Shown here: in pieces, positions 11,001-53,112 of the stretch
Numbering within the stretch: the stretch's first letter is position 1
How the letters are laid out: the number at the start of each line of letters is the position of its first letter
DNA from: Roseivirga sp. 4D4
Lineage (GTDB): Bacteria; Bacteroidota; Bacteroidia; Cytophagales; Cyclobacteriaceae
Assembly (NCBI RefSeq): GCF_001747095.1
Contig: NZ_MDGP01000001.1
Coordinates: 975,001 to 1,039,000, forward strand
DNA length: 64,000 bases
Reading direction: 5' to 3'
The notes under the pieces: generated by a model
What the model saw: the letters and a program-made list of their open reading frames with translations, nothing else
Told to the model about the DNA's origin: nothing
The model's database searches: none
Position numbers and translations under genes: made by a program

Positions 11001-11029
11001 AAAAGGAAAAAGCCCGGTTCTACCAGGCT
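11001..11029 (-). terminator. Rho-independent terminator of the actin/bactofilin operon
   Basis: On the minus strand, AGCCTGG (11029-11023) pairs with CCGGGCT (11017-11011) around a 5-nt loop and is followed by TTTTTCCTTTTCC. The bactofilin stop codon is in the loop. Confidence 0.8.
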
Positions 11030-11493
11030 ACTCCTCCGTAATTGTCTTGACGATCCTCATCATCATTTGATGTATTGGTCGTAAAAGTAATTTTCTGTGT
11101 AGACCTAGAAGGTGAGCTACTATTCAATTCAGGCATCTCGACTTCTGCCCCGACATTCACCTTTCCATTCATTTCAGCGCCATTTTCTACAGAAATTCTT
11201 TTAGAATAGATTTTACCATAGATTTTGGCTGTCTTAGAGATATGCAGGAGACCATTGGCTAAAACATCTCCGTTGACGTAGCCATCGATGGTGATATCTG
11301 TACCGCTTAGGTTTCCTCCAATTTCACCATGACTACCAATAATGATCTTCTCGCTTGAGATCAAATCCCCTGTCACAAACCCATCTACTCGGATGCTGTG
11401 CTCAGATTTCATATTACCTGAAATCACAGAGCCATTCCTGACCTGTGTGATGTAGGTCGATGGGTTAACCGAAGCTGATTCTCTCTTACTCAT
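11020..11493 (-). CDS. Bactofilin-family cytoskeletal protein
   Basis: Bactofilins polymerise without nucleotide into non-polar filaments that scaffold membrane-associated machinery. The 157-residue protein has a short polar N terminus, then the repetitive right-handed beta-helix core (about residues 20-115) with Gly/Ile-rich repeats of type GNxxxxxxIxIDGxVxGDL and VNGDVLANGLLHI. An acidic, disordered tail follows (SNDDEDRQDN) and ends in VAW. Its ATG shares a base with the stop of the upstream actin-like gene (TAATG), so the two are translationally coupled and probably work together in the same structure (inference). Confidence 0.92.
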   Translation of the reverse strand: MSKRESASVNPSTYITQVRNGSVISGNMKSEHSIRVDGFVTGDLISSEKIIIGSHGEIGGNLSGTDITIDGYVNGDVLANGLLHISKTAKIYGKIYSKRISVENGAEMNGKVNVGAEVEMPELNSSSPSRSTQKITFTTNTSNDDEDRQDNYGGVAW

Positions 11494-12548
11494 TAGTAAT
11501 CAGATGGAATGGATGAATTTGAAGTTGCACCATTTTCGTCAAAGATCGAAAGAATAGTAGTCGCATTTCCAATATCAAGTCCGACAGCATTGCTTTTTAC
11601 CCCGCCATTCAATTGAGCGGAGTTAATGCAATAGCCTCTACTTGCCAGTGTTTGTGGCTCATTCGCTACTTGAAGATCAAGGATGTCCTGGAATTCTTTC
11701 TTGAAGCAATCAACTAACATCGGATACATTGCACCACCTCCAGCTAAGAACATCTCGTGAGAGATGGTAAAGTCATTGTCATTAAAAGCTTTTCTCATGG
11801 CAGGAGAGATTACATCCTCATAGTATTGCTTTAATACTTTGTCTCTAATCTCCTTAATATCAATACGTTTTCTATTTAAGAATATTACTCCCTTCTGAAA
11901 AGCTGCATCAATCTGATGCTCAGTTTTGAGCTCTAAATAGTAAGTTTTTGCCAGTTCTTTTTCTAGCAGGTTAACAGCGTATCTCAATCCGTAAGTTGAA
12001 AGTGATGTTCTTTGAACAATACCACCTTCAGTACTCAAAAGCCCCTCTAGTGTTCCGTACCCAAGTGACATGACAAAGAAGTTGCCCGTTGCTTTCTGAA
12101 GTCCCTTGCGGAGTGCAATGGCACAGCTAATTACCTCTGGTATGACCTGAACACTGTCGATTTCAACCTGTACATTCTTTCTAGTGCCTCCGCCATAAGT
12201 AGCGGCATCGTACTCGATTACATGTTGTGTATTGATCAATTCGCTGGCTACTTCTTTATAAAGCTGAAAGGTTGAGAATGGAAAGCCGGTAGAAAGTGTA
12301 AGCGGATTTCCTAATTTCTGGTTTGCGATCAGCATACCTGATTTCAATAGTAAATGATAGTCTAGCTCGTCCGGAGCACTATTGATATTTCTGTGTGGAG
12401 ATACTCCTTCGGTAAGTGCAAGGTTACCAACCACGTAACCATCGCCATTATGATATAATTTTAGACCATTGATCAGGTCTGGAGAAACGTTTCTTAAATC
12501 CGTATTATTTCCCTCGAAAACACTTGGGAATGTATAAGTCTTAAACAT
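11493..12548 (-). CDS. ParM-type actin-like ATPase, apparently circularly permuted
   Basis: The 351-residue protein shows the actin-like (ParM/Alp) ATPase pattern in permuted order. The N terminus starts with TFPSV (residues 6-10), which in ParM relatives comes after the phosphate-1 loop. Then follow STGFP near 86-90, VIPEV near 135-139, a phosphate-2-like loop SLGYGT at 161-166 (Ser where Asp is usual) and the adenosine loop AGGGA at 269-273. The phosphate-1 motif LDIGNATT, normally within the first 15 residues, sits at 324-331 near the C terminus and is followed by SIPSD. An in-frame stop 15 bases upstream of the ATG rules out a missed N-terminal copy. Coupling to a bactofilin suggests a cytoskeletal role. 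The family is fairly clear; the permutation is my reading and needs a structure model. Confidence 0.75.
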   Translation of the reverse strand: MFKTYTFPSVFEGNNTDLRNVSPDLINGLKLYHNGDGYVVGNLALTEGVSPHRNINSAPDELDYHLLLKSGMLIANQKLGNPLTLSTGFPFSTFQLYKEVASELINTQHVIEYDAATYGGGTRKNVQVEIDSVQVIPEVISCAIALRKGLQKATGNFFVMSLGYGTLEGLLSTEGGIVQRTSLSTYGLRYAVNLLEKELAKTYYLELKTEHQIDAAFQKGVIFLNRKRIDIKEIRDKVLKQYYEDVISPAMRKAFNDNDFTISHEMFLAGGGAMYPMLVDCFKKEFQDILDLQVANEPQTLASRGYCINSAQLNGGVKSNAVGLDIGNATTILSIFDENGATSNSSIPSDY

Positions 12549-26133: not shown

Positions 26134-28524
26134 ATGCTCAAAAACTACATCACCACGACATTCAGATTCTTTTGGAAGAATAAATCTTACAGCCTCATTA
26201 ATCTACTGGGTTTATCCATTGGTATGAGCTGCTTTATCTTGCTGAGTTTATTTGTCCGAAAGGAATTCAGCTATGACCAATATCATGAGGATAAGGATCT
26301 TATCTACCAAGTTTATTTAAGCGATACGAGCAGTAGCAGAAGTGATTATGCCTATCAGACAATGGCTCCTATGGCACCGCTTTTCAAGGAAACAGTTCCT
26401 GAAGTCACAGAGGCAATTCGGTTTGGCAGAATGAACAATCGTGTGATCAAATTGAAAACAGGAATTAAGTATCAGGCTGACGAAGTTTATTATACCGATG
26501 AGTCAGTGTTTGACTTTTTCTCTATTCGGCTTTTAGCAGGCTCATCTTCAAGTGTACTGGCCTCAGGTGATCATATGGCAATCTCAGAAGAGGTGGCCAT
26601 TAGAATGTTTGGCACAGTGGAAGAGGCAATATCAGAAACGATTGAGATCGTTGATTTTGGTGCTTTGACCGTGAGTGGAGTCTTCGAGAATTTGCCAGAT
26701 AACACGCATCTAGATTTTGATTATCTCATTTCTTTCGAAAATGCAGACAAGGCTATGGCCCATGTTTTTGGACCAAATAACGCTGCACTGGGTGCTGATG
26801 CCAAGTCGGTGATGGATTGGGGTACAGTTTCGGCATTTCCGGTGTATCTCAAACTTAGATCGGATCTTATCGATATCGAAAATGTAGAATTGAGTCTGCA
26901 AAGCGCACTTGCTCCGCACAGGCCATCTGATTTAGTGAAGTTGGTCCCGCTGACAGAGATTTACTTTTCTGAATTGAATAAGGGTTACTTTGGTAGAAAA
27001 GGAGAGGAGTCTAATGCTCGGCTTTATTTAATTATTGCCTTTATCATTCTTGGCGTAGCTATAGTTAACTATATGAATATGGCTACTGCACGCCATTCAA
27101 AAAGGGCAAAAGAGGTTGGAATTCGTAAGACGGTTGGAGGGCATCGTATGCAAATTGCCAAGCAATTCTTTCTAGAATCCACCTTAATGGCATTTATCTC
27201 TCTTTTACTCGCAATTTGCTTCACAGAAATGGCTCTGCCTACACTGAACGGGTTTATCGGTAAGGATTTGGCTCTAGCTTACGACTCACCCTTAACCTAC
27301 ATGACACTGGCACTATTTACGGTGCTGATCAGCTTCTTGTCGGGAATATATCCATCTATTTTCCTTTCTAAGTTCAGCCCTATTCAAATGCTTACCGGTA
27401 GAGTGTCTGGTGGTAAAGGAGGTGCTGCTTTCAGAAAGGTGCTTGTCGGCTTCCAATTCTTTGTATGCCTTAGTTTAATTGCTATCACCAGCATTGTGTA
27501 TAGCCAGTTTAGCTACATGCAAAACATGGACTTAGGAATCGAAGAAGATCAGATAATCGGTGTTTCAATGAGAGACACAAACCTTCAGAAAAGCTACCCT
27601 GTATTTAAGGATCGATTGCTCTCTAATGCGTCAATTTCCGCTGTGACTGGTGTTTCTTATTCCGTATTCAAGGGGAATATGTCTGTTTATGCAGGTATAG
27701 CTGGAATGGAAGAAAGTCAACCTGTGAGTTACATGTCGGTGGAATCAAATTTCCTCAACACATTAGGTATAAAGGTTAATACTGGACAATCCTTTGCAGA
27801 TATGGACGAGAGTGCAGTGACTAATGCCTTGCTGATCAATGAGACAGCAGCTGAAAAGTTTGGTTGGGATAATCCACTTGAAGAGAAAATCTTTCAGGCG
27901 CCCATAACAGGAGTTGTTGATGATTTTATCTATGGTTCTGCCAAAACAGCGATAGCTCCAATGGTAATGATGACCTCTAAGGAAGGGTTTAGTCAGGCTT
28001 ATATTAAGATCAATGGAGCTAATGTAAAAGAAGCCGTCAATCATGTCCAGTCGGTCTTTGAAGACTTCTCAATCGATTATCCCTTTGAGTATAAGTTCTT
28101 AGACGATCACTTCGCTGAGATGTATGAAGGCGAGAAAAGACTTTCCGATATCTTTTCCATTTTCAGCCTACTCGCAATTTTCATCGCTGGTTTAGGGATA
28201 TTTGGATTGTCCATATTTATGGCCGAGCAGAGAATCAAAGAAATTGGCATTAGAAAAGTATTAGGAGCAGGTGTTGGCCACATCATTTGGGTTATGAATA
28301 ATGGCGTTACCAAGTTGATGGTTGTTGTTGCCATAATAACACTTCCATTGGTATATCATTTTATGAGTTTATGGCTTTCTGACTTTGCTTTTCATATTAC
28401 TCTTAATGGAATTCTGTTAGTCGCACCTTTGCTGGTCTTAACACTAATTGTTTGGAGTATACTCATGTTCCAATCCTATAAGTCCGCTAGGACAAATCCA
28501 ATAAACGCATTGCGTACTGACTGA
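26134..28524 (+). CDS. ABC transporter permease, double FtsX/MacB type (array member 1)
   Basis: This 796-residue inner-membrane protein is built of two MacB-like halves: an N-terminal helix (about 20-42), a periplasmic MacB-type domain (about 45-280), three helices forming FtsX domain 1 (about 285-410), another helix (about 432-455), a second periplasmic domain (to about 670) and FtsX domain 2 with three helices. The cytoplasmic coupling motifs KEVGIRK (near 321) and KEIGIRKVLGAG (near 700) would contact an ATPase. The C terminus is NPINALRTD. Such proteins export or mechanically transmit across the envelope; the cargo is unknown. It has its own sigma-54-type promoter and is separated from member 2 by 155 bp. 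Confidence 0.9.
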   Translation: MLKNYITTTFRFFWKNKSYSLINLLGLSIGMSCFILLSLFVRKEFSYDQYHEDKDLIYQVYLSDTSSSRSDYAYQTMAPMAPLFKETVPEVTEAIRFGRMNNRVIKLKTGIKYQADEVYYTDESVFDFFSIRLLAGSSSSVLASGDHMAISEEVAIRMFGTVEEAISETIEIVDFGALTVSGVFENLPDNTHLDFDYLISFENADKAMAHVFGPNNAALGADAKSVMDWGTVSAFPVYLKLRSDLIDIENVELSLQSALAPHRPSDLVKLVPLTEIYFSELNKGYFGRKGEESNARLYLIIAFIILGVAIVNYMNMATARHSKRAKEVGIRKTVGGHRMQIAKQFFLESTLMAFISLLLAICFTEMALPTLNGFIGKDLALAYDSPLTYMTLALFTVLISFLSGIYPSIFLSKFSPIQMLTGRVSGGKGGAAFRKVLVGFQFFVCLSLIAITSIVYSQFSYMQNMDLGIEEDQIIGVSMRDTNLQKSYPVFKDRLLSNASISAVTGVSYSVFKGNMSVYAGIAGMEESQPVSYMSVESNFLNTLGIKVNTGQSFADMDESAVTNALLINETAAEKFGWDNPLEEKIFQAPITGVVDDFIYGSAKTAIAPMVMMTSKEGFSQAYIKINGANVKEAVNHVQSVFEDFSIDYPFEYKFLDDHFAEMYEGEKRLSDIFSIFSLLAIFIAGLGIFGLSIFMAEQRIKEIGIRKVLGAGVGHIIWVMNNGVTKLMVVVAIITLPLVYHFMSLWLSDFAFHITLNGILLVAPLLVLTLIVWSILMFQSYKSARTNPINALRTD

Positions 28525-28537
28525 TTCTGAGTAGGTG

Positions 28538-28569
28538 TCCGCTGGCGGTCGGTACAGTTCGCTGACGGA
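28538..28569 (+). promoter_or_regulatory. Candidate enhancer (two dyads) of the second permease promoter
   Basis: TCCGCTGGCGGT (28538-28549) and TTCGCTGACGGA (28558-28569) are again 20 bp apart, and the first begins 86 bp before the -24 GG, exactly as upstream of permease 1. Bases between and around the dyads are also partly conserved (CGSTAMAGTTCG), while the sequence between enhancer and promoter is not. Confidence 0.5.
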
Positions 28570-28622
28570 TGATTGCATTAGAGGAAGTCTATTCAATCAA
28601 TTGAAAATCAAGTAATTAAGTT

Positions 28623-28638
28623 TGGTACGGTGCTTGAA
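28623..28638 (+). promoter_or_regulatory. Sigma-54-type promoter of the permease 2-7 operon
   Basis: TGGTACG-N4-TTGAA has GG at 28624-28625 and TTG at 28634-28636 with correct spacing. It is the closest match to the sigma-54 consensus in the window. The predicted start is near 28649, 31 bases before the ATG. Confidence 0.65.
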
Positions 28639-28679
28639 ATGACCATTGATAAGCCCAGGGCTCTAAATCTCAAAATACC

Positions 28680-31046
28680 ATGAACAACATCTTAAGATTC
28701 TTCAAGTCTGGAATTAAGAGTCTCAAAAGAGAACGATTTTTTGCAGTAGTCAATATCATAGGTCTTTCCCTTGGTATGTACTGCTTTCTGGTGACTTCCC
28801 TTTACGTTCAAGATGAGTTAACACATGACAGGTGGCATAGAAATGCTGATAATATCTACATGCCTAAGATGATGATGAGCTTTGGCGAATCGAATAGCTT
28901 CTTTCTATTTCCACCAGTAAAGTTAGGGGAGGCAATGACCGAAGAAATCCCAGGCGTCCTAGACGCTGTCAATATCAGTTTGGCACAAAGGGTCAGTTAC
29001 ACTTTTAAGGATGAGGAGTTTGAATCAAAAGAATTTTTCTATACCGAACCAAGCCTCTTTGACGTCTTCGATTTTGAATTAAAATATGGCAGCGAAGAGA
29101 CAGCTTTGAGTACTACAGATGATATCATACTGTCTTCAGAAATCGCTAAGAAGCATTTTTCCGGTCAAAACCCGGTGGGTGAGTTCATAGAAATCATTGG
29201 CAAAGGAACATTCAGAATTTCAGGTGTGCTGAAGCCCATTCCCGCTAAGTCTCACCTTCAATTTGAATTTTTGGCCTTAATCAATACAAAAAAGGCACCT
29301 TATGACTTCTATGTAGATAGATGGGATACTGGGACGGGGCTCAATTACATACTGACCATGCCAGATTACTCAGAAGAGAAATTATTGGAAGACACTAAAA
29401 GGGTCTTAATGTCCAAGGATACCACTGGTACTCCAGGTGAGTACAGTTATACAAAATTCACTGACCTATACATGGAAAATGGGACCATGAGAAGTTCAGA
29501 AAAAGCCATGTTCGGTGGTCAAATGAAGTACGTCTATATTTTCTCACTTATTGGCGGACTTTTATTGCTAGTGGCCTGTTTTAACTACATCAATTTGACA
29601 ACTGCCAGATCATTTGCCAGGTCAAAAGATGTAGCTGTCCGTAAAATTATCGGAGCGACAAAAACAAGGTTGGTACTCTATCAAATGGGAGAGACGCTGT
29701 TTTTATCGCTTTTTGCACTTGTTATTGCAGTAGTGTCTGTAGAGGTTACGCTACCGGGGATTAATAGCATTTTAGATAAGTCTTTGGCTTTAGACTTCAT
29801 CACTTCACCTCAGGTCCTTTTGCTCCCGATTGGCATCTTGTCAGTAGTGGTTTTGATCTCCGGTTTATACCCTGCATTGACAGTGTCTGCATTTAGCTTA
29901 TCCTCTGTTTTAAGGGGCACAAATCCCAAGTCCACAAAGGCGATTTTCAGAAAGGCACTTATCGTTTTACAGTTCTTGATTTGTGCAGGTCTTCTCTCTA
30001 GTGCCTTGATTATTAGAGGGCAAGCCGAGTATTTAGTTAATCTCGACTTGGGTTATAATGAGGAGAATGTTCTTGGTCTAGACCTCACTAAAGCAGGTCT
30101 TTTCGAAAAGTATGTTGAGTTTAGAACGGAAGTTGAACGGATTCCTCAAATCGAGATGGTCAGTGGTTCGCCATTACCAAACTTTAATTCAATCATTAAT
30201 ATTCCAGTAGGTGAGGGCGAGGATAAGTTTGATGTTACCTACTTCTATGGCGCAGCTGATAAGGATTTCAATGACCTTTTTGGCTTAGAGTTTATCTATG
30301 GCAATGGGTTTGAGGGCTTGACAGATTCTGAACTTGAAACCGCAGTCATTATCAATGAGGCTGCATTGAAGCGTTTGGGTTGGGAGGGAAATCCGATCGG
30401 CCGAAAGCTATTGGAGAGTAAGGTAGTTCGGGGTGTCACCAAAGATTTTCACTATAGATCAGGTAAGTCCAAGATTGGTCCAATACTGATCGATAATCAA
30501 ATGGATCAAATCAGTAAGCTCCAGGTCAAGTTTCGCGAAGGGGATAGAGCCGCGGTTATTGCGCAAGTAGAAAAGGTATGGGAAGGCTTTAATACAAAAG
30601 GAAAATTCGAGATGGAAGAGGTAGAGGACTTCTTTGCAGATACCTATAAGCGAGAGGAGAGCCTTGTGAATATTTTCGACCTATTAACCGGTTTGTTGAT
30701 GGTGGTGGCCTTTTTAGGATTGTTTGCCCTGTCCACTTTTGAGAATCAGTTGAGAGAAAAGGAAATGAGCATTCGCAAAGTGCTTGGCGCTAGTTATATG
30801 AACCTCATAAGAGTCCTGAACAAGAAGTTCACCTTGCTGATTGTCCTGGCTATATTGATTTCAGTTCCAGCGTCATATCTCCTCATCAATGAGTGGTTGA
30901 TATCTTTTCCTTATAGAATCGAGAGCGTGGTGCCGTATTTCGGTATTGCCATCAGTGCAGTATTGCTACTGTCTATATTAATACTGGGTGTGCACAGTTA
31001 CTTCAACACCAGAAAGAACCCTGCTAACGTCCTTAGAAACGAATAA
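28680..31046 (+). CDS. ABC transporter permease, double FtsX/MacB type (array member 2)
   Basis: This 788-residue protein has the same two-half layout as member 1. It is the most divergent in the first coupling motif (SKDVAVRKIIGA near residue 315); the second is EKEMSIRKVLGAS near 695. The C terminus is NPANVLRNE. It is the first gene of a six-gene run with gaps of 11, 2, 14, -8 and 2 bp, so members 2-7 are almost certainly one transcript from the sigma-54-type promoter at 28623. Substrate unknown. Confidence 0.9.
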   Translation: MNNILRFFKSGIKSLKRERFFAVVNIIGLSLGMYCFLVTSLYVQDELTHDRWHRNADNIYMPKMMMSFGESNSFFLFPPVKLGEAMTEEIPGVLDAVNISLAQRVSYTFKDEEFESKEFFYTEPSLFDVFDFELKYGSEETALSTTDDIILSSEIAKKHFSGQNPVGEFIEIIGKGTFRISGVLKPIPAKSHLQFEFLALINTKKAPYDFYVDRWDTGTGLNYILTMPDYSEEKLLEDTKRVLMSKDTTGTPGEYSYTKFTDLYMENGTMRSSEKAMFGGQMKYVYIFSLIGGLLLLVACFNYINLTTARSFARSKDVAVRKIIGATKTRLVLYQMGETLFLSLFALVIAVVSVEVTLPGINSILDKSLALDFITSPQVLLLPIGILSVVVLISGLYPALTVSAFSLSSVLRGTNPKSTKAIFRKALIVLQFLICAGLLSSALIIRGQAEYLVNLDLGYNEENVLGLDLTKAGLFEKYVEFRTEVERIPQIEMVSGSPLPNFNSIINIPVGEGEDKFDVTYFYGAADKDFNDLFGLEFIYGNGFEGLTDSELETAVIINEAALKRLGWEGNPIGRKLLESKVVRGVTKDFHYRSGKSKIGPILIDNQMDQISKLQVKFREGDRAAVIAQVEKVWEGFNTKGKFEMEEVEDFFADTYKREESLVNIFDLLTGLLMVVAFLGLFALSTFENQLREKEMSIRKVLGASYMNLIRVLNKKFTLLIVLAILISVPASYLLINEWLISFPYRIESVVPYFGIAISAVLLLSILILGVHSYFNTRKNPANVLRNE

Positions 31047-31057
31047 AACTCAAAGTC

Positions 31058-33463
31058 ATGATTCGCAACTATTTTTTAGTCACTTTCAGAAACATCGCAC
31101 GGCATAAAGGCTATTCAGCCATCAATATCACTGGTTTAGCCCTTGGAATTGCCTGCTGTATGCTCATTTTTCTTTATGTAAAGGATGAGTTAACCTATGA
31201 TCGCTATCAGTCCAAAGTTGATAGAATCTATCGTATTGGTTCGGAGATAGATTTCTTTGGTGGAATTAGTAATATTTCGGCATCGAGCCCTGTAGAGGCT
31301 CCGGCCTATTTAGAGAATATACCTGAGGTAGAGGACTTTACCAGAATGGAGTCTGCCCAGGTCATCGTTAAGAAGGGCGAGGAATATATCGATCAGCACC
31401 AAACAGTTTTCAGTGACCCTTCGCTATTCGATATTTTTGATTTTGAGACCCTTTCGGGTGATTTGTCGACTGCTCTTAATGAGTTGAATCGTGTGGTGAT
31501 TACCGAAGAATTAGCAGAAAAATATTTAGGAACTACAGATGCTGCAGGTCAAGAGCTGACAATTAGGGTCAAGGGCAAAATGGAGCAGTATGTGGTTGGA
31601 GCAGTAATCGCTAACATACCAGAAAACTCATCGCTCGAAATAAAAATGGTATTTCCATGGAAGAAGTTTGAAACCTTCCATACTTACCGTCCGAAGCCTT
31701 GGACATCTATTGGTTTTACTTCGTTTCTTCTTTTAAAAGAGGGTACCGATGCACAAGCCATACTGCCCAAGTTCAAAGAAGTTAGAGATACTCAAAACCC
31801 AGATAAGGATGGTGAGTTTGCCCGCAGGGTGAAAACCATATTACAGCCTCTGGCCAGTCTTCATTTAGACACTAGCCTATCTGGAGGAGTTGGTGTAAAG
31901 GGGAGTAGTGATCCCACATATTCCTACATACTTAGCGGAATAGCACTGTTGATTCTGATACTTGCCTGTATCAACTTTGCAAACCTTTCAGTTGCCAGAT
32001 CTCTTCCTCGAGCCAAGGAAATCGGTGTAAGGAAAGTACTTGGTGCCAGAAAAAAACAATTGAGCTTTCAGTTTTTATTGGAGGCATTCAGTATTTCATT
32101 GATGGCTTTTGTGATTGGCTTACTGATCGCTGAGCTGTTACTCCCATTCTTCGGAAGGTTAACGGAAAAGACTTTTAACAACAATGTTACCAGTGATTTG
32201 GGGCTTTTGGCGGGCTGTTTTGCTCTTGTTATGCTAGCGGCCTTTATCGCTGGTAGCTACCCATCTTTCGTCATATCCAGGTTCTCAGTGTTAAAGAGCC
32301 TTTCAGGAAAGGTGAAATTGAATGGAAAGCAGTATGTCACCAAAGGCTTGGTGCTCTTTCAGTTTACCATAGCCGCAGTTTTGGTGGTCGGAACGATCGC
32401 TATGAACAAACAAATTGGTCATATGCTCAAAGTTGATCTCGGTTATGATGATCAGGACTTGGCCAAAATTGTCCTGACTGGTAATGAAGACAAAGGCCAA
32501 TTGTTGAAGAACATTATTGGTCAGAACCCAAGTATTGAGAAGATATCACTCACAGATGGTTACAATGCAGGAACGAGTGTTGGGCATAAGGAAAAGACGA
32601 GCTTTAGTATTTCCAATTCCATCGATGAAGATTACTTGGACATACTAGGCCTGGAACTCATCGCAGGTCGTGAATTGAAAAGCGGTAAGGATCAATACAT
32701 TTTTGGCGAAGACACTCTTACGAATGTGGTTGTTAACCAAAAGTTTGTTGAGGAGCTTGAGATCGAGGGGGACCCTATTGGGGCATTAATCACTGATGGT
32801 GATGACGATCCAGAGACAGCCACTTTTCAATATCGCATCGTGGGTGTAGTGAGTGATTATATATTCTCGAGTGCCAAATCAGGAATAATGGGGATGATGC
32901 TATTACCTAGCGATGAGTCCACAAAATTCAATGAGATATTAATCAAGTACCAGCCAGAGTATTTAACAGAGTTGAAAGAGGAAATGCATGCGGCTTGGCG
33001 AGAGATTGAACCCTATCAGCCTATGTCTTTAGAATTCGTAGATGAGGAGAACAGAGCGGCATACGAGACCGAAAAACGCTGGAAGTCAATCATTACCACT
33101 TCTACTGTCCTAGCGATACTGATTTCATGTCTTGGGTTATTTGGTTTGGCTCACTTGTCAGCACAGCAAAGAGCCAAAGAAGTTGGCGTAAGAAAAGTGT
33201 TAGGGGCCTCTGTAAAGAGACTTGTCGTAATGCTCAACCTGACTTTTTCCAAGCTGGTATTGGCCTCATTGGTGGTGTCTACACCGATAGCTTATTATCT
33301 GGTAAATAACTGGTTGGATAACTTTCAATACCGCATTGATTTGAACGCAACAGTCTTTCTCATTCCAGCACTAATCACCTTTGGGATAGCCGGTGCGACC
33401 ATTTCTGTACAGTCTTTTAAGACAGCTAGTGCAAACCCAGTGGATTCACTTAGAAATGAATAG
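31058..33463 (+). CDS. ABC transporter permease, double FtsX/MacB type (array member 3)
   Basis: This 801-residue protein has the N-terminal helix after the conserved start MIRNYFLVTFRNIARHKGYS, two periplasmic MacB-like domains and two FtsX domains. The coupling motifs are canonical in both halves: AKEIGVRKVLGA near residue 319 and AKEVGVRKVLGA near 707. The C terminus is NPVDSLRNE. Two near-consensus coupling loops suggest each half can engage an ATPase protomer. It starts 11 bp after member 2. Confidence 0.9.
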   Translation: MIRNYFLVTFRNIARHKGYSAINITGLALGIACCMLIFLYVKDELTYDRYQSKVDRIYRIGSEIDFFGGISNISASSPVEAPAYLENIPEVEDFTRMESAQVIVKKGEEYIDQHQTVFSDPSLFDIFDFETLSGDLSTALNELNRVVITEELAEKYLGTTDAAGQELTIRVKGKMEQYVVGAVIANIPENSSLEIKMVFPWKKFETFHTYRPKPWTSIGFTSFLLLKEGTDAQAILPKFKEVRDTQNPDKDGEFARRVKTILQPLASLHLDTSLSGGVGVKGSSDPTYSYILSGIALLILILACINFANLSVARSLPRAKEIGVRKVLGARKKQLSFQFLLEAFSISLMAFVIGLLIAELLLPFFGRLTEKTFNNNVTSDLGLLAGCFALVMLAAFIAGSYPSFVISRFSVLKSLSGKVKLNGKQYVTKGLVLFQFTIAAVLVVGTIAMNKQIGHMLKVDLGYDDQDLAKIVLTGNEDKGQLLKNIIGQNPSIEKISLTDGYNAGTSVGHKEKTSFSISNSIDEDYLDILGLELIAGRELKSGKDQYIFGEDTLTNVVVNQKFVEELEIEGDPIGALITDGDDDPETATFQYRIVGVVSDYIFSSAKSGIMGMMLLPSDESTKFNEILIKYQPEYLTELKEEMHAAWREIEPYQPMSLEFVDEENRAAYETEKRWKSIITTSTVLAILISCLGLFGLAHLSAQQRAKEVGVRKVLGASVKRLVVMLNLTFSKLVLASLVVSTPIAYYLVNNWLDNFQYRIDLNATVFLIPALITFGIAGATISVQSFKTASANPVDSLRNE

Positions 33464-33465
33464 TC

Positions 33466-35859
33466 ATGCTTAAGAACTACCTTAAAATCGCCATTAGAAA
33501 CTTATTGAAGAATAAGCTCTATTCTTCTATTAACGTTGCAGGCCTTTCTGTAGGTCTAGCGGCCTGTGTTCTGATCGTGCTCTTTGTTAGACATGAGTTG
33601 AGTTTTGACAAACACTTTAGCAATTCTGAGGACATTTATAGGGTGACTGGAGCCTATAATCAGGGAGGTGATGCCAAAACATATTCTGCAACGACAACTT
33701 ATCCCTTACTGCCACTCCTTCAGGCCAACTTTCCTGAAATTGAGACATCTGCACGGATAGATAATTTTGCCGCCAATATTGAAATAGGTGATCGGGTAAT
33801 CTACCAAGACGAAATGCTTATCGTTGATTCCACGTTCTTCGATCTGTTCAGCTTTGAAGCCATTTCTGGAGACTTGACCAATGTGTTGAACGAACCAAAT
33901 GCCATAGTGCTGTCAGAGGCAGCGGCATTAACCCTTTTCAACAAACTAGACATTATCAATGAAGTAATCAGGGTCCAAGAGACAGACTTCAAAGTAGCTG
34001 CCTTGGTTAAGGATTTACCAGAAAACACCCACTTTCAGGCCCAAATATTTATTCCAATGTCTACTGGCATTCAGTGGTATGGCGACTGGGTGCACATTTT
34101 ATTCAATGGAACTAGTCATTACACTTATTTGCAACTTGCGGCAGGAATGGATCCGAGTGATGTGGCTCAAAGGATCAATGCTTTCCTTAATGAAAACTAC
34201 GAACAAGAAACACCGGCAGCATATTCCCTTCAAGCCATTGAGTCAATTCACCTTGAATCTGATTTGGTAGGAGAGCTTGGCGTAAATGGGAACAAGACCA
34301 CAGTACTGATATTCATTGCTACGGCCATAGTTATTCTGCTACTGGCTTGCATCAATTATATCAATCTATCCATTGCCACAGCCTTTCAAAGAGGTACTGA
34401 AGTTGGGCTTAAGAAGGTATTTGGTGCTAAACCATTGGCTCAGGTAATCCAGTTTCAAGTAGAATCAGCGATAGTGGCCTTGTTGGCCTGTATTGTAGCA
34501 GTTGTCTTAGTTGAATTTTCTTTGCCATTCTTCAACCAGGTGACCGGAGGTAGTTTTGATTTTAACCTTCAGGAAGACATTCTGTTATCTCTCGCGATTT
34601 TCGGTGTGGCCTTGATCATCGGCTTTGTATCTGGCAGTTTTCCAGCGGTCTTTTTGCTTAAAATGAAAACTACTAATGCCTTAAGAGCAAGCACACTTTC
34701 AAATGGCAAGAGTAAGTTCAGTTTGAGAAATGCACTTGTCGTATTTCAATTCTTCATTGCTGTTGTTCTCATCGCTTCTACGCTCATCATACTCAATCAG
34801 ATCAAATTTTTGAGAAATGCTGATTTGGGTATTGATACTGAGCAGGTGGTAGTAGTTCCAATTGGTATCATCAATAATCAGTATGATTTGTTGCGACAGG
34901 AGTTAATGCGTGATGCCAATATTGTTAATGTCACGGCCAGCAATAATCATCCTGCGAATCGTGTAGGACACTGGAGGGGTTATTATCCCGAAAACGCAGA
35001 GGAGCAAATCTCGGCACCAACAGTCATCATCTCACATGATTTCTTTGAAACCCTTGGTGCAGAGATGGCGGAAGGCAGGGCTTTCGATCGGTCGTTTGAA
35101 ACGGACTACATGGAAGCCTATGTGATCAATGAAGCTGCAGTGAATTTTTTTGGTTTTGAAGAACCTGTAGGAGCCTCCTTAAGAGGGAGTGCTTATACTG
35201 GGTCTCAATGGTCTCAAAAAAATGCCAAAGTGATCGGTGTGGTAAAGGACTTTCATTTTGCTTCTTTGCATAGCGAAATTAGGCCCACCGTTTTCTCCTT
35301 GAACTCTGAAGCTACTTGGGGTCTGAACTTTATGAGTGTTCGTGTCGCTCCTGGTGACTTGCAGAACACCATTGCTAAAATTGAGGAAACATGGCGTCAG
35401 TTTGCCGGAGCAATTCCATTTGATTTCACCTTTCTGGATGAAGATGTTAACCAACATTATCAAGCAGAAGATCGCTTTTTAAAGGTCTTCACGAGCTTTT
35501 CATTCTTATCCATAATTATTGGGTGCCTCGGTCTCTTTGGTCTCACCGCCTTTATGATGAAACAAAGGACCAAGGAGATAGGCATAAGAAAAGTGCTTGG
35601 TGCCGAAGTCTTTGGTTTGGTAAATACCCTTTCTAAAGACTTTTTAAAGCTTGTTTTGGTGGCCAATGTACTGGGGTGGCCATTGGCTTACTATCTAATG
35701 GATAAGTGGTTGCAAAACTTCGCTTATTCTAATGGTATTTCCTGGAAGGTATTTTTCTGGACAGGTCTTGGAGCCGTTGTCATTGCCTTTGTTTCGGTGG
35801 CATATCATGCGGTAAAAACAGCTCGTATGAACCCTGTTAATTCTATTCGCTACGAATAA
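33466..35859 (+). CDS. ABC transporter permease, double FtsX/MacB type (array member 4)
   Basis: This 797-residue member has the family layout. Its first coupling motif is altered (TEVGLKKVFGA near residue 309, lacking the usual Lys-Glu start), while the second is canonical (TKEIGIRKVLGA near 700). Halves may therefore differ in ATPase contact, as in heterodimeric exporters (inference). It starts 2 bp after member 3. The C terminus is NPVNSIRYE. Confidence 0.9.
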   Translation: MLKNYLKIAIRNLLKNKLYSSINVAGLSVGLAACVLIVLFVRHELSFDKHFSNSEDIYRVTGAYNQGGDAKTYSATTTYPLLPLLQANFPEIETSARIDNFAANIEIGDRVIYQDEMLIVDSTFFDLFSFEAISGDLTNVLNEPNAIVLSEAAALTLFNKLDIINEVIRVQETDFKVAALVKDLPENTHFQAQIFIPMSTGIQWYGDWVHILFNGTSHYTYLQLAAGMDPSDVAQRINAFLNENYEQETPAAYSLQAIESIHLESDLVGELGVNGNKTTVLIFIATAIVILLLACINYINLSIATAFQRGTEVGLKKVFGAKPLAQVIQFQVESAIVALLACIVAVVLVEFSLPFFNQVTGGSFDFNLQEDILLSLAIFGVALIIGFVSGSFPAVFLLKMKTTNALRASTLSNGKSKFSLRNALVVFQFFIAVVLIASTLIILNQIKFLRNADLGIDTEQVVVVPIGIINNQYDLLRQELMRDANIVNVTASNNHPANRVGHWRGYYPENAEEQISAPTVIISHDFFETLGAEMAEGRAFDRSFETDYMEAYVINEAAVNFFGFEEPVGASLRGSAYTGSQWSQKNAKVIGVVKDFHFASLHSEIRPTVFSLNSEATWGLNFMSVRVAPGDLQNTIAKIEETWRQFAGAIPFDFTFLDEDVNQHYQAEDRFLKVFTSFSFLSIIIGCLGLFGLTAFMMKQRTKEIGIRKVLGAEVFGLVNTLSKDFLKLVLVANVLGWPLAYYLMDKWLQNFAYSNGISWKVFFWTGLGAVVIAFVSVAYHAVKTARMNPVNSIRYE

Positions 35860-35873
35860 CAAACTCGAATCAG

Positions 35874-38240
35874 ATGCTCAGAACTAACTTCAAAATCGCT
35901 GTAAGAAAACTCTTAAATAAGAGAGAGTTTACCTTGATCAATGTACTTGGCCTATCTGTAGGGCTGACTACAAGTTTATTGATTTTTCTATGGGTCAATG
36001 ACGAGATCAATTTTGACAAATTTCATAAGGGTTCAGACAGAGTCTATGGTGTTTGGGCACATGATTATCGGGACAATGGAGACATAGCAACGGAAAGTCG
36101 ACAAAACGGTCTTATCAAGAATGTGATGGATAGCGACTTTCCAGAAGTAGAGCGATCCACAAGGGTAGATAGCCGAGAGCACCAACTAGCCGTTGGCGAT
36201 CGCAAATTCAAGCAATTGGGGATTATGGTCGATGAAGAGTTCTTCCAGATGTTCAACTTTCCATTTATCGAGGGGGAGTTAGAAGAGAATAGCTTGGCTA
36301 CTTATGGTGATGTGATTTTGACTGAGAGCATGGCCATCAAACTGTTTGACAAAACGAATGTGGTAGGTGAGTTGATTAAAATTGATAATACCCGAGACGG
36401 AATTATACGCGGAGTAGTAAAGGATCCACCAAAGAACAGTCAGTTTCAATTTGACTTTGTCCTGTCGATTGAAAACTGGACGAAAAGAAATAGTTGGATC
36501 ATGCGGTGGGGCAATTCTGGAATCTTCACCTTCATTCAATTAAAAGAAAATGCATCTCCATTGGCTTTGGAGACAAAGATTGAAGACTTAATTCGCAAGA
36601 ACCAAGAAGGAAATACAAAGTCGCTTTTCTTAAAATCATTCGATGATATCTATTTGAGAAGCAGCTATGAAGGAGGTGAGGAAGCAGGTGGAAGAATAGA
36701 GTACGTAAGACTGTTTACCCTAATAGGTATATTCATCGTATTCATAGCCTGCATCAATTTCATCAATCTATCGGTTGCTGATGCTTTCAAGAGGGCAAAG
36801 GAGGTAGGTGTCAGAAAAGTCTCAGGAGCTAATCGCTTGATACTAATCAAACAGTTCTTAACCGAATCCAGCCTGATTGTGGTTTTGTCTGTGGTCATAG
36901 CTGTCATTTTTATCGAGATCGCTTTAGGCCCTTTTAATACGCTGACTGGAAAAGAAGTAAGCCTTAACTGGCTGGATACCAATTTACTGGGCTTGGTGGG
37001 AGGTTTGGGAATATTCACTGTCCTAGTTTCCGGACTCTACCCAGCCCTCGTGCTATCGAGTTTTAATGTGGTAAAGGCACTCAAGGGAAAAGTAGATGCC
37101 AAAGGAACATCTAGAGCAGGAGGCTACTTTAGGAAGGGCTTAGTAGTTTTTCAATTCGTTATTGCCGGTTTTCTAATCTTTGCCACACTCATTATTAATG
37201 GTCAGGTAGAGTACATCTTCGAAAATCAAAGAAATGTAGACAAGGAGGGAGTCATTATGCTTCAAAATGATGGTGCCTTGCTGGAGAGATATGAGAGTTT
37301 TCGTTCTGAATTACTGAAAGACCCAAGCATACAGTCTGTAACTGTCGTTGGACACGCACCGGTGAATGTAGAGGCCAGCACAGGGGACTTCGATTGGGAA
37401 GGGAAAGATCCATTAAGAGATAAAACGAGCTTTAATGTACTCTTCACCGAACAGGACTTTGTTCCGACAATGAACCTCAAGATAGTGGCAGGCCGAAACT
37501 TCTCAAGGGAGATTGAATCAGATGTCTCTACGGTATTAGTAAATGAAGCCACTGTCAGAGGAATGAATGTCGAGAACCCTGTGGGTATGGCTGTTAAGTT
37601 TTGGGACAATGATGTAAAGATTATTGGGGTAGTCGAAGATTTCCATACCGGTTCTGTTTACGATGAGATCGAACCTCTGATCATTTTGAATTATGCTGAG
37701 AATAGTGATTATGTGACTATAAAAGCAGCTAGAGGTCAGGAGCAACGTGCTGTAGAGGTGCTGAAGGAAAAATACGAAGCCTTTATGCCAGGTTATCTCT
37801 TCGATTATAAATTCTTATCGGAAGAGCATGAGGCTATGTATAAAAGCGAGCTTTTAATTAAAGACCTAGCCAAAGTGTTCGGTCTAATCGCGATTGTTAT
37901 CTCTTGTTTAGGGCTTTATGGCCTTACTTCTATTAATGCGCAAAGAGGGGTTAAGGAAATTGGTGTTAGAAAGGTGCTTGGAGCCAGTGTTTGGCAGATT
38001 CTGTTGGGCTTTTCAAGGCAGTCTCTATCACTTCCTGTACTCGCCTTGGTGCTCATGGTTCCACTGGCCTATTATACCATGGATTCTTGGTTACAAGACT
38101 TTCAGTATCACATTGATATTATGCCATCGAGTCTGGCAGGGGTAGTGGTCGCTTCTTTACTCATAGCTTGGTTAACCGTTTCGATTATAGCCTATAAGGC
38201 GGCAAAGACAAATCCTGTAAACTCTCTCAGAAATGAATAA
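35874..38240 (+). CDS. ABC transporter permease, double FtsX/MacB type (array member 5)
   Basis: This 788-residue member has coupling motifs AKEVGVRKVSGA (near residue 308) and VKEIGVRKVLGA (near 692). Periplasmic domains, membrane segments and the C-terminal NPVNSLRNE follow the family pattern. Its 3' end overlaps the start of member 6 by 8 bp, the only true overlap in the array, which indicates coupled translation. Confidence 0.9.
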   Translation: MLRTNFKIAVRKLLNKREFTLINVLGLSVGLTTSLLIFLWVNDEINFDKFHKGSDRVYGVWAHDYRDNGDIATESRQNGLIKNVMDSDFPEVERSTRVDSREHQLAVGDRKFKQLGIMVDEEFFQMFNFPFIEGELEENSLATYGDVILTESMAIKLFDKTNVVGELIKIDNTRDGIIRGVVKDPPKNSQFQFDFVLSIENWTKRNSWIMRWGNSGIFTFIQLKENASPLALETKIEDLIRKNQEGNTKSLFLKSFDDIYLRSSYEGGEEAGGRIEYVRLFTLIGIFIVFIACINFINLSVADAFKRAKEVGVRKVSGANRLILIKQFLTESSLIVVLSVVIAVIFIEIALGPFNTLTGKEVSLNWLDTNLLGLVGGLGIFTVLVSGLYPALVLSSFNVVKALKGKVDAKGTSRAGGYFRKGLVVFQFVIAGFLIFATLIINGQVEYIFENQRNVDKEGVIMLQNDGALLERYESFRSELLKDPSIQSVTVVGHAPVNVEASTGDFDWEGKDPLRDKTSFNVLFTEQDFVPTMNLKIVAGRNFSREIESDVSTVLVNEATVRGMNVENPVGMAVKFWDNDVKIIGVVEDFHTGSVYDEIEPLIILNYAENSDYVTIKAARGQEQRAVEVLKEKYEAFMPGYLFDYKFLSEEHEAMYKSELLIKDLAKVFGLIAIVISCLGLYGLTSINAQRGVKEIGVRKVLGASVWQILLGFSRQSLSLPVLALVLMVPLAYYTMDSWLQDFQYHIDIMPSSLAGVVVASLLIAWLTVSIIAYKAAKTNPVNSLRNE

Positions 38241-40629
38241 GTATCTCAAAAGTGCCTATCGTAACCTGATCAAAAGAAAGCTGTTTTCTTTCGTAAATAT
38301 CACCAGTCTGACTTTTGGCTTAGTATGTGCCTTGTTTATCGGCACCTATGTCATTTATGAATTTAGCTATGATAAAGAGATAGATGATGTTGAAAGAACA
38401 TATCGTGTGAATAGTGTCTGGAAAGAGAGTCAGGTAGGTGTAATAGTCCAAACAGCTATCAAACCTTACATGGATAAAAACATGGGGCAGGTAGAGATGT
38501 CTACCCGTGTGCAGCGTACAGGTCCCTTTGTTTTTAAGGTTGGAGATGTCATCATCCGTGAAAGAAACGGTTACTATGCAGACCCCGAAGTTTTCGATGT
38601 CCTTGACATCGACTTAGCCCTAGGCTCAAGAGAAGAAGCCCTAAAAGGAGTACAAACAATAGTCATTTCCGAAAAATTCGCTCAAAAATACTTTGGTGAT
38701 CAAAACCCTCTGGGCAAACAAATTCAAACTGATGAAGACATTGACGGAAAACCAATGCGGCTTACAGTAGCGGCAGTGTTCAAAGATGTTCCTGCTAATA
38801 GACATTTCAGGCCCGACTATCTCATCAGTATTGATATTATCAGAGGCTTTCAAAGCAGACCGATAGATCAGGAATGGGGTAATTCTAATTGCTTCACATA
38901 CCTCAAACTTCTTCCAGACGTCACTGAGGATCAAATCAATAGTCAAATTTCCAACATAGTTGTTGAGAATAGTGAGTATGATATGACGGGTTATGCCTTG
39001 CGTCTACAGGCAGTAAGTGACATACATATGCAGGATTTCGTAGCCTTCGGAGATATTCCAGGTCAAGTTAGTAAGCGAAACATGTTGATTTTGGCTGGAA
39101 TAGGCTTCCTAATCGTGCTTTTGGTCTGCATTAATTTCTTCAATATGTCCACAGCCAGATCGTTGGAGCGGGCAAAAGAGATAGGGGTTCGAAAATCTAT
39201 TGGTGCAAGTCGTTCCAATGTTATGGTCCAGTTTATGACAGAGTCGGCCTTACAGGTTACCGTAGGGATGGTTTTGAGTATTATCCTGTTCGAAGTTCTA
39301 GGAGACCTACTAACTGAATTTACCGGCCTTCGCTTCAATACAGGCACCATGGTCGAATCGCTAGGCTATCTGAATTTTAGCCTTTTCATTCTATCGTTAT
39401 GGGTGGTTCTGGTGATTGGCTCTGGCTTTTATCCATCTCTCGTGATTTCCAAATTCAAACCCGTAGACTCCTTGAAGGGCAAAGTGAATATAGGTCGATC
39501 AAGTGTAAGCTTACGAAAAGTACTCTTGGTATTGCAGTTTACCATCACTTTGACCATTGGGGTGGTAGCAGTGGTAGTGTACAGCCAAGTGAAGTATATG
39601 CAGGCCAAAGATCCTGGTTTTGAAAGGGATGCGGTGGTTTCGGTCGACTTATTCGATGACGGTATAAAATCAACTTTCGTTGAGGCCTTAAACAAAAACC
39701 CTCTGATTGAAGCTGTAACCTTCACCGATAGTGATGTGATCAGAATATTTAACTCTAGTAAAGGCTATAGTTGGGAAGGAAAATCGGAAGAAGATGACAT
39801 TACAATCTATCACATGAGTATTGATGACAACTTTGTCACCTCAATGAATATATCGGTCGTTGAAGGACGTAATTTCGATTTTGAATTAAGCACAGACAAG
39901 GATGCAGTGATACTTAATCAAGCAGCTGCCAAGCTAATGGGGATTGAATCTTTGGAAGGTTCACCAATGGTCACTAGGGGTAGAGGAGAGAATGAAAAGC
40001 AGCTTAATGTTATTGGTATTGTAAAGAACTTTCAGACGGGTACACTGAGAGAGAAAGACAAGCCAATGTTAATGTACCAAAACCCAAACAGGCTTTTCAG
40101 AGCTTATATCAAACTATCTGAGAACAGAAGAGCAGATGCCATTGCCGGTATTGAAAGTGTCTGGAATTCGCTAGTGTCCGATCAGCCATTCGAGTACCAA
40201 TCACTCGCTGAGGGATATAACAGGATTTTGGCCAAGGATAAAGCCTCAGGTAATACGCTGCTGTTTTTCACTGTTGTAAGCGTTGCCATATCATTTTTCG
40301 GTCTATTTGGTATGACAAGCCTCAACATTCAGTCCAGAATGAAAGAACTAGGTATTCGAAAAATACTTGGGGCCCATTATAGAGACATTTTTGCAGCTGT
40401 TTCGAGGCAATTTCAATATACCATGTTGACGGCCCTAGTTTTGGGAGTACCGCTGGCATGGTACCTTGGTAGTGAGTGGTTGAATGGTTTTGCCCATAGA
40501 ATTAATGTCACTGCCATTATTCCATTAATTGTGGTGTTGGGAATGACATTCATTGGACTAGTTACCATTTACTTCTGCACTCAAAAGTTTACGAGAATCA
40601 ATCCAGTTCAAACCTTAAGAGAACAATAG
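38233..40629 (+). CDS. ABC transporter permease, double FtsX/MacB type (array member 6)
   Basis: This 798-residue member starts within the last codons of member 5. Its coupling motifs are AKEIGVRKSIGA (near residue 311) and MKELGIRKILGA (near 702). The C terminus is NPVQTLREQ. It begins MNKYLKSAYRNLIKRKLFSF, the same amphipathic basic leader before the first helix that all array members share. Confidence 0.9.
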   Translation: MNKYLKSAYRNLIKRKLFSFVNITSLTFGLVCALFIGTYVIYEFSYDKEIDDVERTYRVNSVWKESQVGVIVQTAIKPYMDKNMGQVEMSTRVQRTGPFVFKVGDVIIRERNGYYADPEVFDVLDIDLALGSREEALKGVQTIVISEKFAQKYFGDQNPLGKQIQTDEDIDGKPMRLTVAAVFKDVPANRHFRPDYLISIDIIRGFQSRPIDQEWGNSNCFTYLKLLPDVTEDQINSQISNIVVENSEYDMTGYALRLQAVSDIHMQDFVAFGDIPGQVSKRNMLILAGIGFLIVLLVCINFFNMSTARSLERAKEIGVRKSIGASRSNVMVQFMTESALQVTVGMVLSIILFEVLGDLLTEFTGLRFNTGTMVESLGYLNFSLFILSLWVVLVIGSGFYPSLVISKFKPVDSLKGKVNIGRSSVSLRKVLLVLQFTITLTIGVVAVVVYSQVKYMQAKDPGFERDAVVSVDLFDDGIKSTFVEALNKNPLIEAVTFTDSDVIRIFNSSKGYSWEGKSEEDDITIYHMSIDDNFVTSMNISVVEGRNFDFELSTDKDAVILNQAAAKLMGIESLEGSPMVTRGRGENEKQLNVIGIVKNFQTGTLREKDKPMLMYQNPNRLFRAYIKLSENRRADAIAGIESVWNSLVSDQPFEYQSLAEGYNRILAKDKASGNTLLFFTVVSVAISFFGLFGMTSLNIQSRMKELGIRKILGAHYRDIFAAVSRQFQYTMLTALVLGVPLAWYLGSEWLNGFAHRINVTAIIPLIVVLGMTFIGLVTIYFCTQKFTRINPVQTLREQ

Positions 40630-40631
40630 AT

Positions 40632-51495: not shown

Positions 51496-53112
51496 CTATT
51501 GGCCCTTGATGATCTTTTTGGTGACAATACCATCGGGCGTGACGAGTTTCAAGAGTAATAAGCCACTTTTTACACCACTAAGGTCAATTTGGAATTTGTT
51601 CTGAAAGAAATTCGGGGTAAAATCATAGTGCTGAATCACTGCTCCTTCCCCATTCAATAACTGACCATCGATGGTCTGACCAATATACCCTTCCTCAAAG
51701 GCCACGGTAAAGTGAGGTAGGGTCGTTGGATTAGGATACGTGAGAACCCCTTCCTCTATTGGCGCCAATGCCTCATCCGCAATCCTAGAGGCTTTTATAA
51801 AGCCCGGAAGGCCATAGCCAAACAGATTATTAGGTTCATCAGCAATGTCACCCGCTCTTCTTATGATATCTCGGATTTCGCTTGCGGTCATCTCTGGAAA
51901 GGCCTGAATAAGTCCCGCAGCTAAGGAAGTAATTAATGGCGCTGAAAAAGATGTGCCGTTTTGAAACCCAACACCTCCTGAACTTGTGAGCAACCGAGTG
52001 GCTACTCCTTGGGCTACAACATCGGGTTTTATACGACCGTCCGCACTTGGACCTTGGCTGCTAAAAGCGGCTAGTATCCCTCCTTCATCGATAGCACCCA
52101 CAGCTAGAACATTTTCACTATCAGCAGGGGCAGTAATGATACGCCAGCGGTCATCACCAGCATTCCCGGCACTGGTCACCAACACGATCCCTTTAGACGC
52201 AGCTATATTTGATGCCCTCGTAATCACTGCCGTTTGACCATCCATATCTGAAATTGAGTAGTCCATGCTACTATCATCAAAAAAATCACCATACCCAAGT
52301 GATGTATTGATCACATCCACTCCTGCACTGTCGGCTTTCTCGGCAGCAAAGAGCCAATTGTATTCTTCAACTCGATATTCCCCAGGAGCTTCTGTAATGG
52401 CCAAAAAGAACTCGGCATTCGGAACACCACCAACAATGTCAACACTGTTCGAAGCAATCAGTGACAAGGAACGCAGGCCGTGATTGAAGTTGTTATCAAC
52501 ATCCTCCCTATTTCTTGTAAAGTCAAAAGTGTAGGCCATCCTATCGCTCAAAACAGCATGCTGAAATGCTGATAAGGAATTATAGTTTTGAAAACCATCG
52601 TCAAAAACACCGACCATAACACCATCGCCCATAAAACCTGCCTGATGCATCAAGTCCATTTCAAGTAATTGATATTGGCGTTCGCTAATTCTTGATGGTT
52701 CAATAGGGCTATCGGCAAACTTTGCCCTTGCAAATGGAATCGGTGTAAGAATATTACCGGGAGCTACATACTCTATGCGATCCACAATGTCCAGTGAAGT
52801 CACATTATTTGCCTGACTTGCTGTCATTTGGACTAAAACACCATTCATCCACTTGGTGGAGAAATAAGTTTCAATTCCTAAGCCCGCTACTTGATCAATA
52901 TAGGATGGATTCACGGGTAGATCTTCCTCCGTAACCTGTACGTCATTCTTCAACCGTCTGGCGAGTGACCTGTGAGACAGAAAATCCTCTGGGGTATTGA
53001 TCGAATAGGGACTATTGGCTTTATCCTTAAAGAAGACCATATACCGGTCTTGTGCGAACAGGTTCGCTGAAATGAAAAGGAATAGAAATATGACGCTAGT
53101 TACCTGCTTCAT
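51496..53112 (-). CDS. Secreted subtilisin-like (S8) peptidase with type IX secretion tail
   Basis: The 538-residue protein has a signal peptide (to about FAQ, residue 21), a propeptide-like N domain (to about 140) and an S8 domain. The catalytic Asp171 (FDDG), His211 (NHGLRS), oxyanion Asn317 (SAGNAG) and Ser388 (GTSFSAP) are all present. The His motif is HGL instead of the usual HGT. The last 80 residues (VLTYPNPTTLP ... GLLLLKLVTPDGIVTKKIIK) form a type A C-terminal sorting domain, so the protein should leave through the type IX system and be anchored or released at the surface. Its start overlaps the lipoprotein gene upstream by 17 bp. Confidence 0.9.
   Translation of the reverse strand: MKQVTSVIFLFLFISANLFAQDRYMVFFKDKANSPYSINTPEDFLSHRSLARRLKNDVQVTEEDLPVNPSYIDQVAGLGIETYFSTKWMNGVLVQMTASQANNVTSLDIVDRIEYVAPGNILTPIPFARAKFADSPIEPSRISERQYQLLEMDLMHQAGFMGDGVMVGVFDDGFQNYNSLSAFQHAVLSDRMAYTFDFTRNREDVDNNFNHGLRSLSLIASNSVDIVGGVPNAEFFLAITEAPGEYRVEEYNWLFAAEKADSAGVDVINTSLGYGDFFDDSSMDYSISDMDGQTAVITRASNIAASKGIVLVTSAGNAGDDRWRIITAPADSENVLAVGAIDEGGILAAFSSQGPSADGRIKPDVVAQGVATRLLTSSGGVGFQNGTSFSAPLITSLAAGLIQAFPEMTASEIRDIIRRAGDIADEPNNLFGYGLPGFIKASRIADEALAPIEEGVLTYPNPTTLPHFTVAFEEGYIGQTIDGQLLNGEGAVIQHYDFTPNFFQNKFQIDLSGVKSGLLLLKLVTPDGIVTKKIIKGQ

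Follow-up and report, generated by a model that had tools for sequence, protein, structure and literature searches.

Can an actin-like protein carry its phosphate-1 hairpin at the end of its core, and what would such a protein do beside a bactofilin? The question is raised by an ORF in the window, as we call the whole 64,000-nucleotide stretch of Roseivirga sp. 4D4 DNA analyzed here, that runs from an ATG start on the minus strand (12548..11493) and whose 351-aa product had been described, in an original prediction made from the sequence, as an apparently circularly permuted ParM-type actin coupled to a bactofilin. We conclude that this gene, which lies on the main contig, almost certainly encodes a ParM/ALP-type actin fold that is circularly permuted, with the phosphate-1 hairpin predicted to come last in the core, not first. 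The call is based on sequence and structure prediction, with conservation, rotation, structure and the phylum-wide ALP_N match starts all in agreement.

Motif order in the actin-like protein

The motifs of the window protein run in the order TFPSV, PE138, SLGYGTLE, GGG (residues 270–272) and LDIGNATT (Table 1), and the positions originally claimed (LDIGNATT at 324–331, a phosphate-2-like loop at 161–166, an adenosine motif at 269–273 and TFPSV near the start) were all recovered on the minus-strand ORF. In canonical ParM/ALP proteins, a TFPSV-type strand comes after the phosphate-1 hairpin. The nearest in-frame stop upstream is a TAG whose first base is 18 nt from the ATG, leaving 15 nt between the two codons; this excludes an N-terminal extension and bears out the earlier statement that a stop 15 bases upstream leaves no room for a missed N-terminal copy. 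The further proposal that the C-terminal SIPSD is a relic of tandem duplication did not hold: this position reads IPAEY, IPSEY, IPADY or NPSDY in close relatives and is missing from more distant ones. It therefore cannot count as a conserved remnant of duplication, and we rejected that reading of SIPSD. Among the matches listed, the closest named locus is that of Roseivirga sp. E12, at 97% identity.

Table 1. Features of the actin-bactofilin locus (window positions)
Feature	Position	Strand	Basis
Predicted circularly permuted ParM/ALP-type actin-like protein, 351 aa	11493..12548	-	conservation, Pfam profiles, model
TFPSV, residues 6-10, N-terminal strand	12519..12533	-	ALP_N match from profile position 17; model strand 3-8
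Glu138 (PE), candidate catalytic glutamate	12135..12137	-	E138 invariant 66/66
Phosphate-2-like loop SLGYGTLE, residues 161-168, Ser first vs canonical Asp	12045..12068	-	S161 invariant 66/66
Adenosine motif AGGGA, residues 269-273	11730..11744	-	G270 and G271 invariant 66/66
Predicted C-terminal phosphate-1 hairpin, residues 321-335 (strands 321-326, 330-335)	11544..11588	-	conservation, rotation, model
Phosphate-1 motif LDIGNATT, residues 324-331	11556..11579	-	conservation
Bactofilin, 157 aa	11020..11493	-	PF04519 80.6 bits, above cut-off of 27.9
Bactofilin C-terminal tail DNYGGVAW, ending in Trp	11023..11046	-	aromatic C termini of next-door bactofilins

Conservation and rotation of the permuted order

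Two homologue searches returned 470 and 250 relatives, of which the best 120 each were used, and pooling all searches gave a set of 153 full-length proteins, the window's included, which is a part of all relatives and leaves out fragments shorter than 325 residues and the chimaeric P0157. A GxDxGN pattern closes the actin core in all 153, indicating that the placement of the motif is not due to chance, and lies within the first 60 residues in none (0/153); no homologue in this set has an N-terminal phosphate-1, and the C-terminal motif is kept, as the permutation claim required. From the start of GxDxGN, 10–40 residues follow in 119 proteins and a long tail in 34. In the 66 aligned sequences, G323, D325, G327 and N328 are invariant, and every sequence has the order phosphate-2, adenosine, phosphate-1 in place of the usual actin/ASKHA order of phosphate-1, phosphate-2, adenosine. 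All three motifs are nevertheless present around one predicted nucleotide cleft, as expected of an actin/ASKHA fold, and a loose PE/SE/TE pattern occurs in 153 of 153 proteins.

Using residues 1–48 of a rotated P0118 as a junction query, which finds proteins through shared 5-residue words, we recovered five proteins among seven candidates. Four were permuted relatives. The fifth, P0157, has only its first residues in common and looks like a transporter over the rest of its length, so these candidates yielded neither an unpermuted nor a tandem form.

By the curated Pfam cut-off for ALP_N (26.3 bits), the native window protein P0001 belongs to the ParM/ALP group, scoring 37.1 bits over profile positions 17–145 of 148. 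The match begins at profile position 17–21 in all six native proteins tested, and at profile position 1 in all six once the C-terminal segment is placed in front. For P0001, rotation raised the score to 40.1 bits (profile 1–145); for the others, scores rose from 41.3 to 53.3 (P0118), 42.0 to 51.4 (P0098), 51.7 to 60.0 (P0034), 43.2 to 51.4 (P0120) and 41.8 to 49.2 bits (P0072). With a shuffled segment in front, by contrast, scores were 37.5 bits for P0001 and 42.2, 42.1, 50.5, 43.3 and 43.2 bits for the other five in the same order, a change of -1.2 to +1.4 bits with matches starting at profile 14–18. The gain for the window protein, 3.0 bits, is the smallest of the six, and its score against PF21522 (23.5 bits) is below the cut-off of 27.8; both count against our reading. 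In short-tailed members, joining the two ends recreates an ordinary ParM-like start, as in P0118, where VGIDVGNAQTVVTVMNGN is joined to MKKFVFPSV. Across 247 genomes of the phylum, we found at least nine ALP_N matches in eight genomes, all starting at profile 16–21, a tally that is a lower bound and misses the window's own copy.

Other actin families fit less well. Native P0001 had no match to MreB_Mbl at E 1, its rotated form reached 15.3 bits against a cut-off of 27, and the FtsA profile PF14450 gave 13.2 bits against 31.8. All 27 carrier genomes examined, including that of the window, also have a strong separate MreB match, indicating that the permuted actin is distinct from MreB. When the protein alone was used to search the sequences of solved structures, it gave one chance hit only, profile searches returned weak or chance hits (eL6 at E 0.0005–0.0007, bromoperoxidases and others) along with Dh-cParM1 at E 0.018 and 0.022, and PADLOC and Rfam gave no match.

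Structure models

In answer to the structure prediction that had been proposed as a check, AlphaFold2 modeled residues 321–335 of the window protein as a two-strand hairpin (strands 321–326 and 330–335; overall pLDDT 88.3, pTM 0.88), with block pLDDT of 93 for 321–330 and 84 for 331–340. A model of a tailed homologue (pLDDT 76.9, pTM 0.74; 221 of 431 residues at 90 or above) has the equivalent hairpin at 322–327 and 331–336. For both models, every one of the 50 structural alignment rows (VIA on Foldseek matches) starts at model residue 1–2 and target residue 16–61; the rows end at model residue 311–319 for the window protein and 314–347 for the tailed homologue. The aligned targets hold their phosphate-1 hairpin in these skipped N-terminal residues, which therefore have no sequential partner in the models, and the C-terminal hairpin of the model is left over. 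Mean-field coupling analysis (153 sequences, effective depth 54) often paired the hairpin with helix 71–79 among its top pairs and gave no clear strand pairing, a point against our explanation.

These data bear on the reading that there is no permutation, the phosphate-1 hairpin having been lost and a similar C-terminal sequence having arisen by chance. Its one foothold is that the hairpin is placed in the nucleotide site by inference from the motif, the profile and the alignment ranges; against it stand the GxDxGN pattern that ends the core in every protein of the set, the rotation gains of 3.0 to 12.0 bits in six of six proteins compared with the shuffled controls, and a hairpin modeled twice, with pLDDT of 84–93. 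We consider loss with a chance motif extremely improbable and reject it in favor of permutation.

Comparison with known actin homologues

Dh-cParM1 and the plasmid ParMs are canonical in order, with phosphate-1 at the N terminus, and the archaeal actin homologue Ta0583 shares the canonical motif order. FtsA and PilM are also actin-fold proteins. FtsA has a linker and a C-terminal tail, and it differs through the relocation of a subdomain rather than a circular permutation. The chromosomal Dh-cParM1 (PDB 8x1i) and plasmid ParMs (6ixw, 6izr) are 16–18% identical to the window protein, and their alignments start at target residue 21–23; that of Ta0583 (2fsj) begins at target residue 19. CorM of Anabaena (9rmi) aligns from target residue 60, so no CorM residue before 60 is matched.

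In the open PMC literature as far as it was covered, we found no description of a natural permuted actin or of a ParM-bactofilin system. The portions covered of the Dh-cParM paper (PMC12270681) and of the paper on FcmB of Nostoc (PMC12645912), which presents FcmB as a partition actin turned to morphology, contain no word starting with permut, Bacteroid or bactofilin. Families within kinase fold groups have been suggested to be related by circular permutation, with no actin named in the part of the source covered (PMC1079889). In PMC7203096, full-text counts gave 22 occurrences of ParM and one each of "circularly permuted" and bactofilin, none of them within the first 300,000 characters.

A recurrent bactofilin neighbor with an aromatic tail

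The stop codon of the actin gene overlaps the ATG of the bactofilin gene as TAATG, confirming the coupling noted originally. A same-strand bactofilin follows the actin in all 18 close loci (L001–L018: 13 named Roseivirga, three named to higher rank only, that of the window and one from a same-genus genome; L007 and L018 possibly come from a single genome). Outside the genus, a bactofilin is linked in 19 of 29 loci (17/24 of L053–L076, 2/2 of L094 and L095, and 0/3 of L091–L093, which are W-tailed actins from three genomes with no bactofilin near the actin); the remaining 10 of 29, with none close by, count against the association. Counted by genome in a PF04519 search, the link is present in 17 of 27. 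In three of the 19 linked loci the bactofilin lies behind a TPR-like gene; the remaining 16 have it as the first gene of at least 80 residues after the actin, at a gap of 3 to 1012 nt. Linked loci fall on both sides of a midpoint-rooted tree, some deep nodes of which are weakly supported, suggesting that the link is either old or recurrent. Together with the modeled hairpin and the lack of N-terminal phosphate-1 motifs, this recurrence supports the central claim of the original prediction, in a stronger form: an actin whose circular permutation is conserved and whose recurrent bactofilin partner appears to be dedicated.

The bactofilins encoded next door, whose linkers vary, share an aromatic C terminus, a new observation of this analysis. 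It is present in 18 of 18 close loci, always as Trp, and in 15 of 16 next-door bactofilins elsewhere (Trp in 11 and Phe in four, with the last of the 16 ending in WI), compared with one, with Phe, among the 27 bactofilins that the same 27 genomes encode away from the actin. Fisher's exact test for 15/16 versus 1/27 gives 1.6e-9, with the caveat that loci within one family are not independent. None of the three bactofilins behind the TPR gene has an aromatic end, which counts against our explanation. An N-terminal MF..K/R pattern, counted with mechanically picked start codons, occurs in 0/18 close, 3/16 other next-door, 0/3 TPR-separated and 14/27 non-adjacent bactofilins; it resembles the membrane-targeting sequence described in the part of PMC12448750 covered.

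In three of the four loci of family f17, a gene judged by eye to be an M23-type peptidase lies just before the actin, giving the order M23-type peptidase, actin, TPR-like protein, bactofilin. A bactofilin operon with the M23 peptidase LmdC functions in morphogenesis (PMC10945521); the three f17 loci share with it the bactofilin operon and the M23-type gene, whereas no actin partner is described for that module in the part of the paper covered.

Other arrangements were seen as well. Two genomes of family f36 (G147, G195) each carry two permuted-actin and bactofilin pairs that are mutually diverged (L067, L068, L094, L095). Three f19 loci with no adjacent bactofilin (L053–L055) have a protein of 1233–1249 residues with pentapeptide-like repeats (by eye) preceding the actin, which may be another beta-helix partner. 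Four more loci with no adjacent bactofilin (L060, L062, L063 and L066; f24/g97) include neighbors that look AsmA-like, OmpA-like or Lgt-like by eye.

Actins with long C-terminal tails

Long tails on the actin itself occur in two lineages, with 26 proteins ending like KFLKTGMW and eight ending in EPDFS (P0137, P0142, P0145, P0146, P0150, P0151, P0152 and P0153); the eight KFLKTGMW-type and three EPDFS-type members included in the tree form separate clades. The EPDFS actins have 104–312 residues, acidic by eye, from phosphate-1 to the end, and a search of 395 class genomes with an EPDFS-tailed query found no genome carrying this tail. The model of the tailed homologue has a disordered linker and a W tail that forms a weak helix (block pLDDT 45–55), which lends no support to docking in cis. 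For three W tails, the hydrophobic moment did not improve on that of shuffled letters, giving no support to an amphipathic membrane anchor of the FtsA kind.

Distribution and genome context

In overlapping draws of genomes, the permuted actin was found in 24 of 392 genomes across the phylum (one of them a contig-end fragment, G329), five of 395 in the class and 12 of 292 in the order, one of the last being a weak match (G523) that lacks the phosphate-1 motif and was dropped. The genome of the window and seven others of the genus carry it, with no same-genus miss among the matches listed; outside the genus, the distribution is patchy.

Several database sources label the relatives as plasmid segregation protein ParM or as ParM/StbA family, which raises the possibility of a ParM-type DNA partition system whose centromere and adaptor went unrecognised. 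These labels and the ALP_N score above cut-off speak for such a system, but the gene sits on a 4.58 Mb contig, collections of plasmid (72,556) and phage (50,697) records had no match at E 1e-5 and a viral-contig collection had none, leading us to reject a plasmid or phage origin. The neighbor clusters of 27 loci, inspected by eye, likewise show no recurrent small DNA-binding neighbor, the recurrent neighbor being the bactofilin. We regard partition as improbable, and the data suggest that names such as plasmid segregation protein ParM are misleading for this permuted family.

Active site

The aligned sequences keep the phosphate-1 Asp together with the PE glutamate and the glycine loop. The phosphate-2 loop begins with Ser, a substitution that the original prediction does not mention, and ends with Glu in 152 of 153 proteins, the remaining sequence being unmatched by the pattern. 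In a weak profile alignment, S161 faces the Asp of DnaK DLGGGTFD. The canonical phosphate-2 Asp takes part in metal binding, so its replacement by Ser makes ATP hydrolysis uncertain, and hydrolysis may be slow or absent; the invariance of this Ser counts against ordinary ATP hydrolysis.

The same substitution, along with a recurrent partner that is a static polymer, would also fit a permuted actin fold that neither cycles nor polymerizes and serves as a nucleotide-binding switch or adaptor recruiting enzymes to the bactofilin scaffold, a role comparable to that of PilM, a non-filament actin-fold adaptor. Retention of the phosphate-1 Asp, E138 and the GGG loop argues against this reading, as do the ParM and CorM filament structures, covered in part, among the closest folds; we consider it rather unlikely.

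A proposed link between actin and bactofilin

Our overall explanation, which we think probable, is that the permuted actin can bind nucleotide and assemble, and that a terminal peptide ties it to a bactofilin scaffold. This explanation starts from the motif order, conservation, gene order and tail statistics observed above, and from these we infer nucleotide binding, assembly, docking and function. Nucleotide would be bound in the usual cleft by D325 of the C-terminal phosphate-1, the 161–168 loop, E138 and the GGG adenosine loop, and the protein would assemble into filaments or nucleotide-gated oligomers. The actin and the bactofilin of the same operon could then form one cytoskeletal unit at the envelope, with the bactofilin supplying a static scaffold that needs no nucleotide. 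The flexible tail of the bactofilin would dock, through the C-terminal aromatic residue, on the actin or on a shared partner, by analogy with the docking of the ParR C-terminal peptide on ParM (complex 4a62, covered in part). Rather than in DNA partition, the likely role would lie in cell shape or in patterning of the envelope. With the permutation, the C terminus would lie free near phosphate-1, the place at which two lineages have gained long tails with conserved ends.

More tentatively, and less probably than not, this could represent a separate branch of the Bacteroidota cytoskeleton. There, an aromatic C-terminal peptide would physically bind a nucleotide-driven permuted actin to a static bactofilin polymer, the C terminus freed by permutation would let lineages shift the peptide from the bactofilin to the actin (KFLKTGMW), and Ser in place of Asp would yield a switch with slow hydrolysis or none. 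Confirmation of the permutation would show that an actin fold can be broken after its first hairpin, beside the nucleotide, and still stay conserved across several families; how termini, nucleotide state and assembly are connected would then be directly testable. The operon, with its bactofilin terminal peptide, provides a concrete candidate link between nucleotide-driven and nucleotide-free bacterial skeletons.

Elsewhere in the window, seven consecutive plus-strand ORFs of 788–811 aa span 26134–43067, the three tested being MacB/FtsX-type permeases, and a minus-strand gene at 51496–53112 encodes a subtilase with a secretion-system C-terminal sorting domain.
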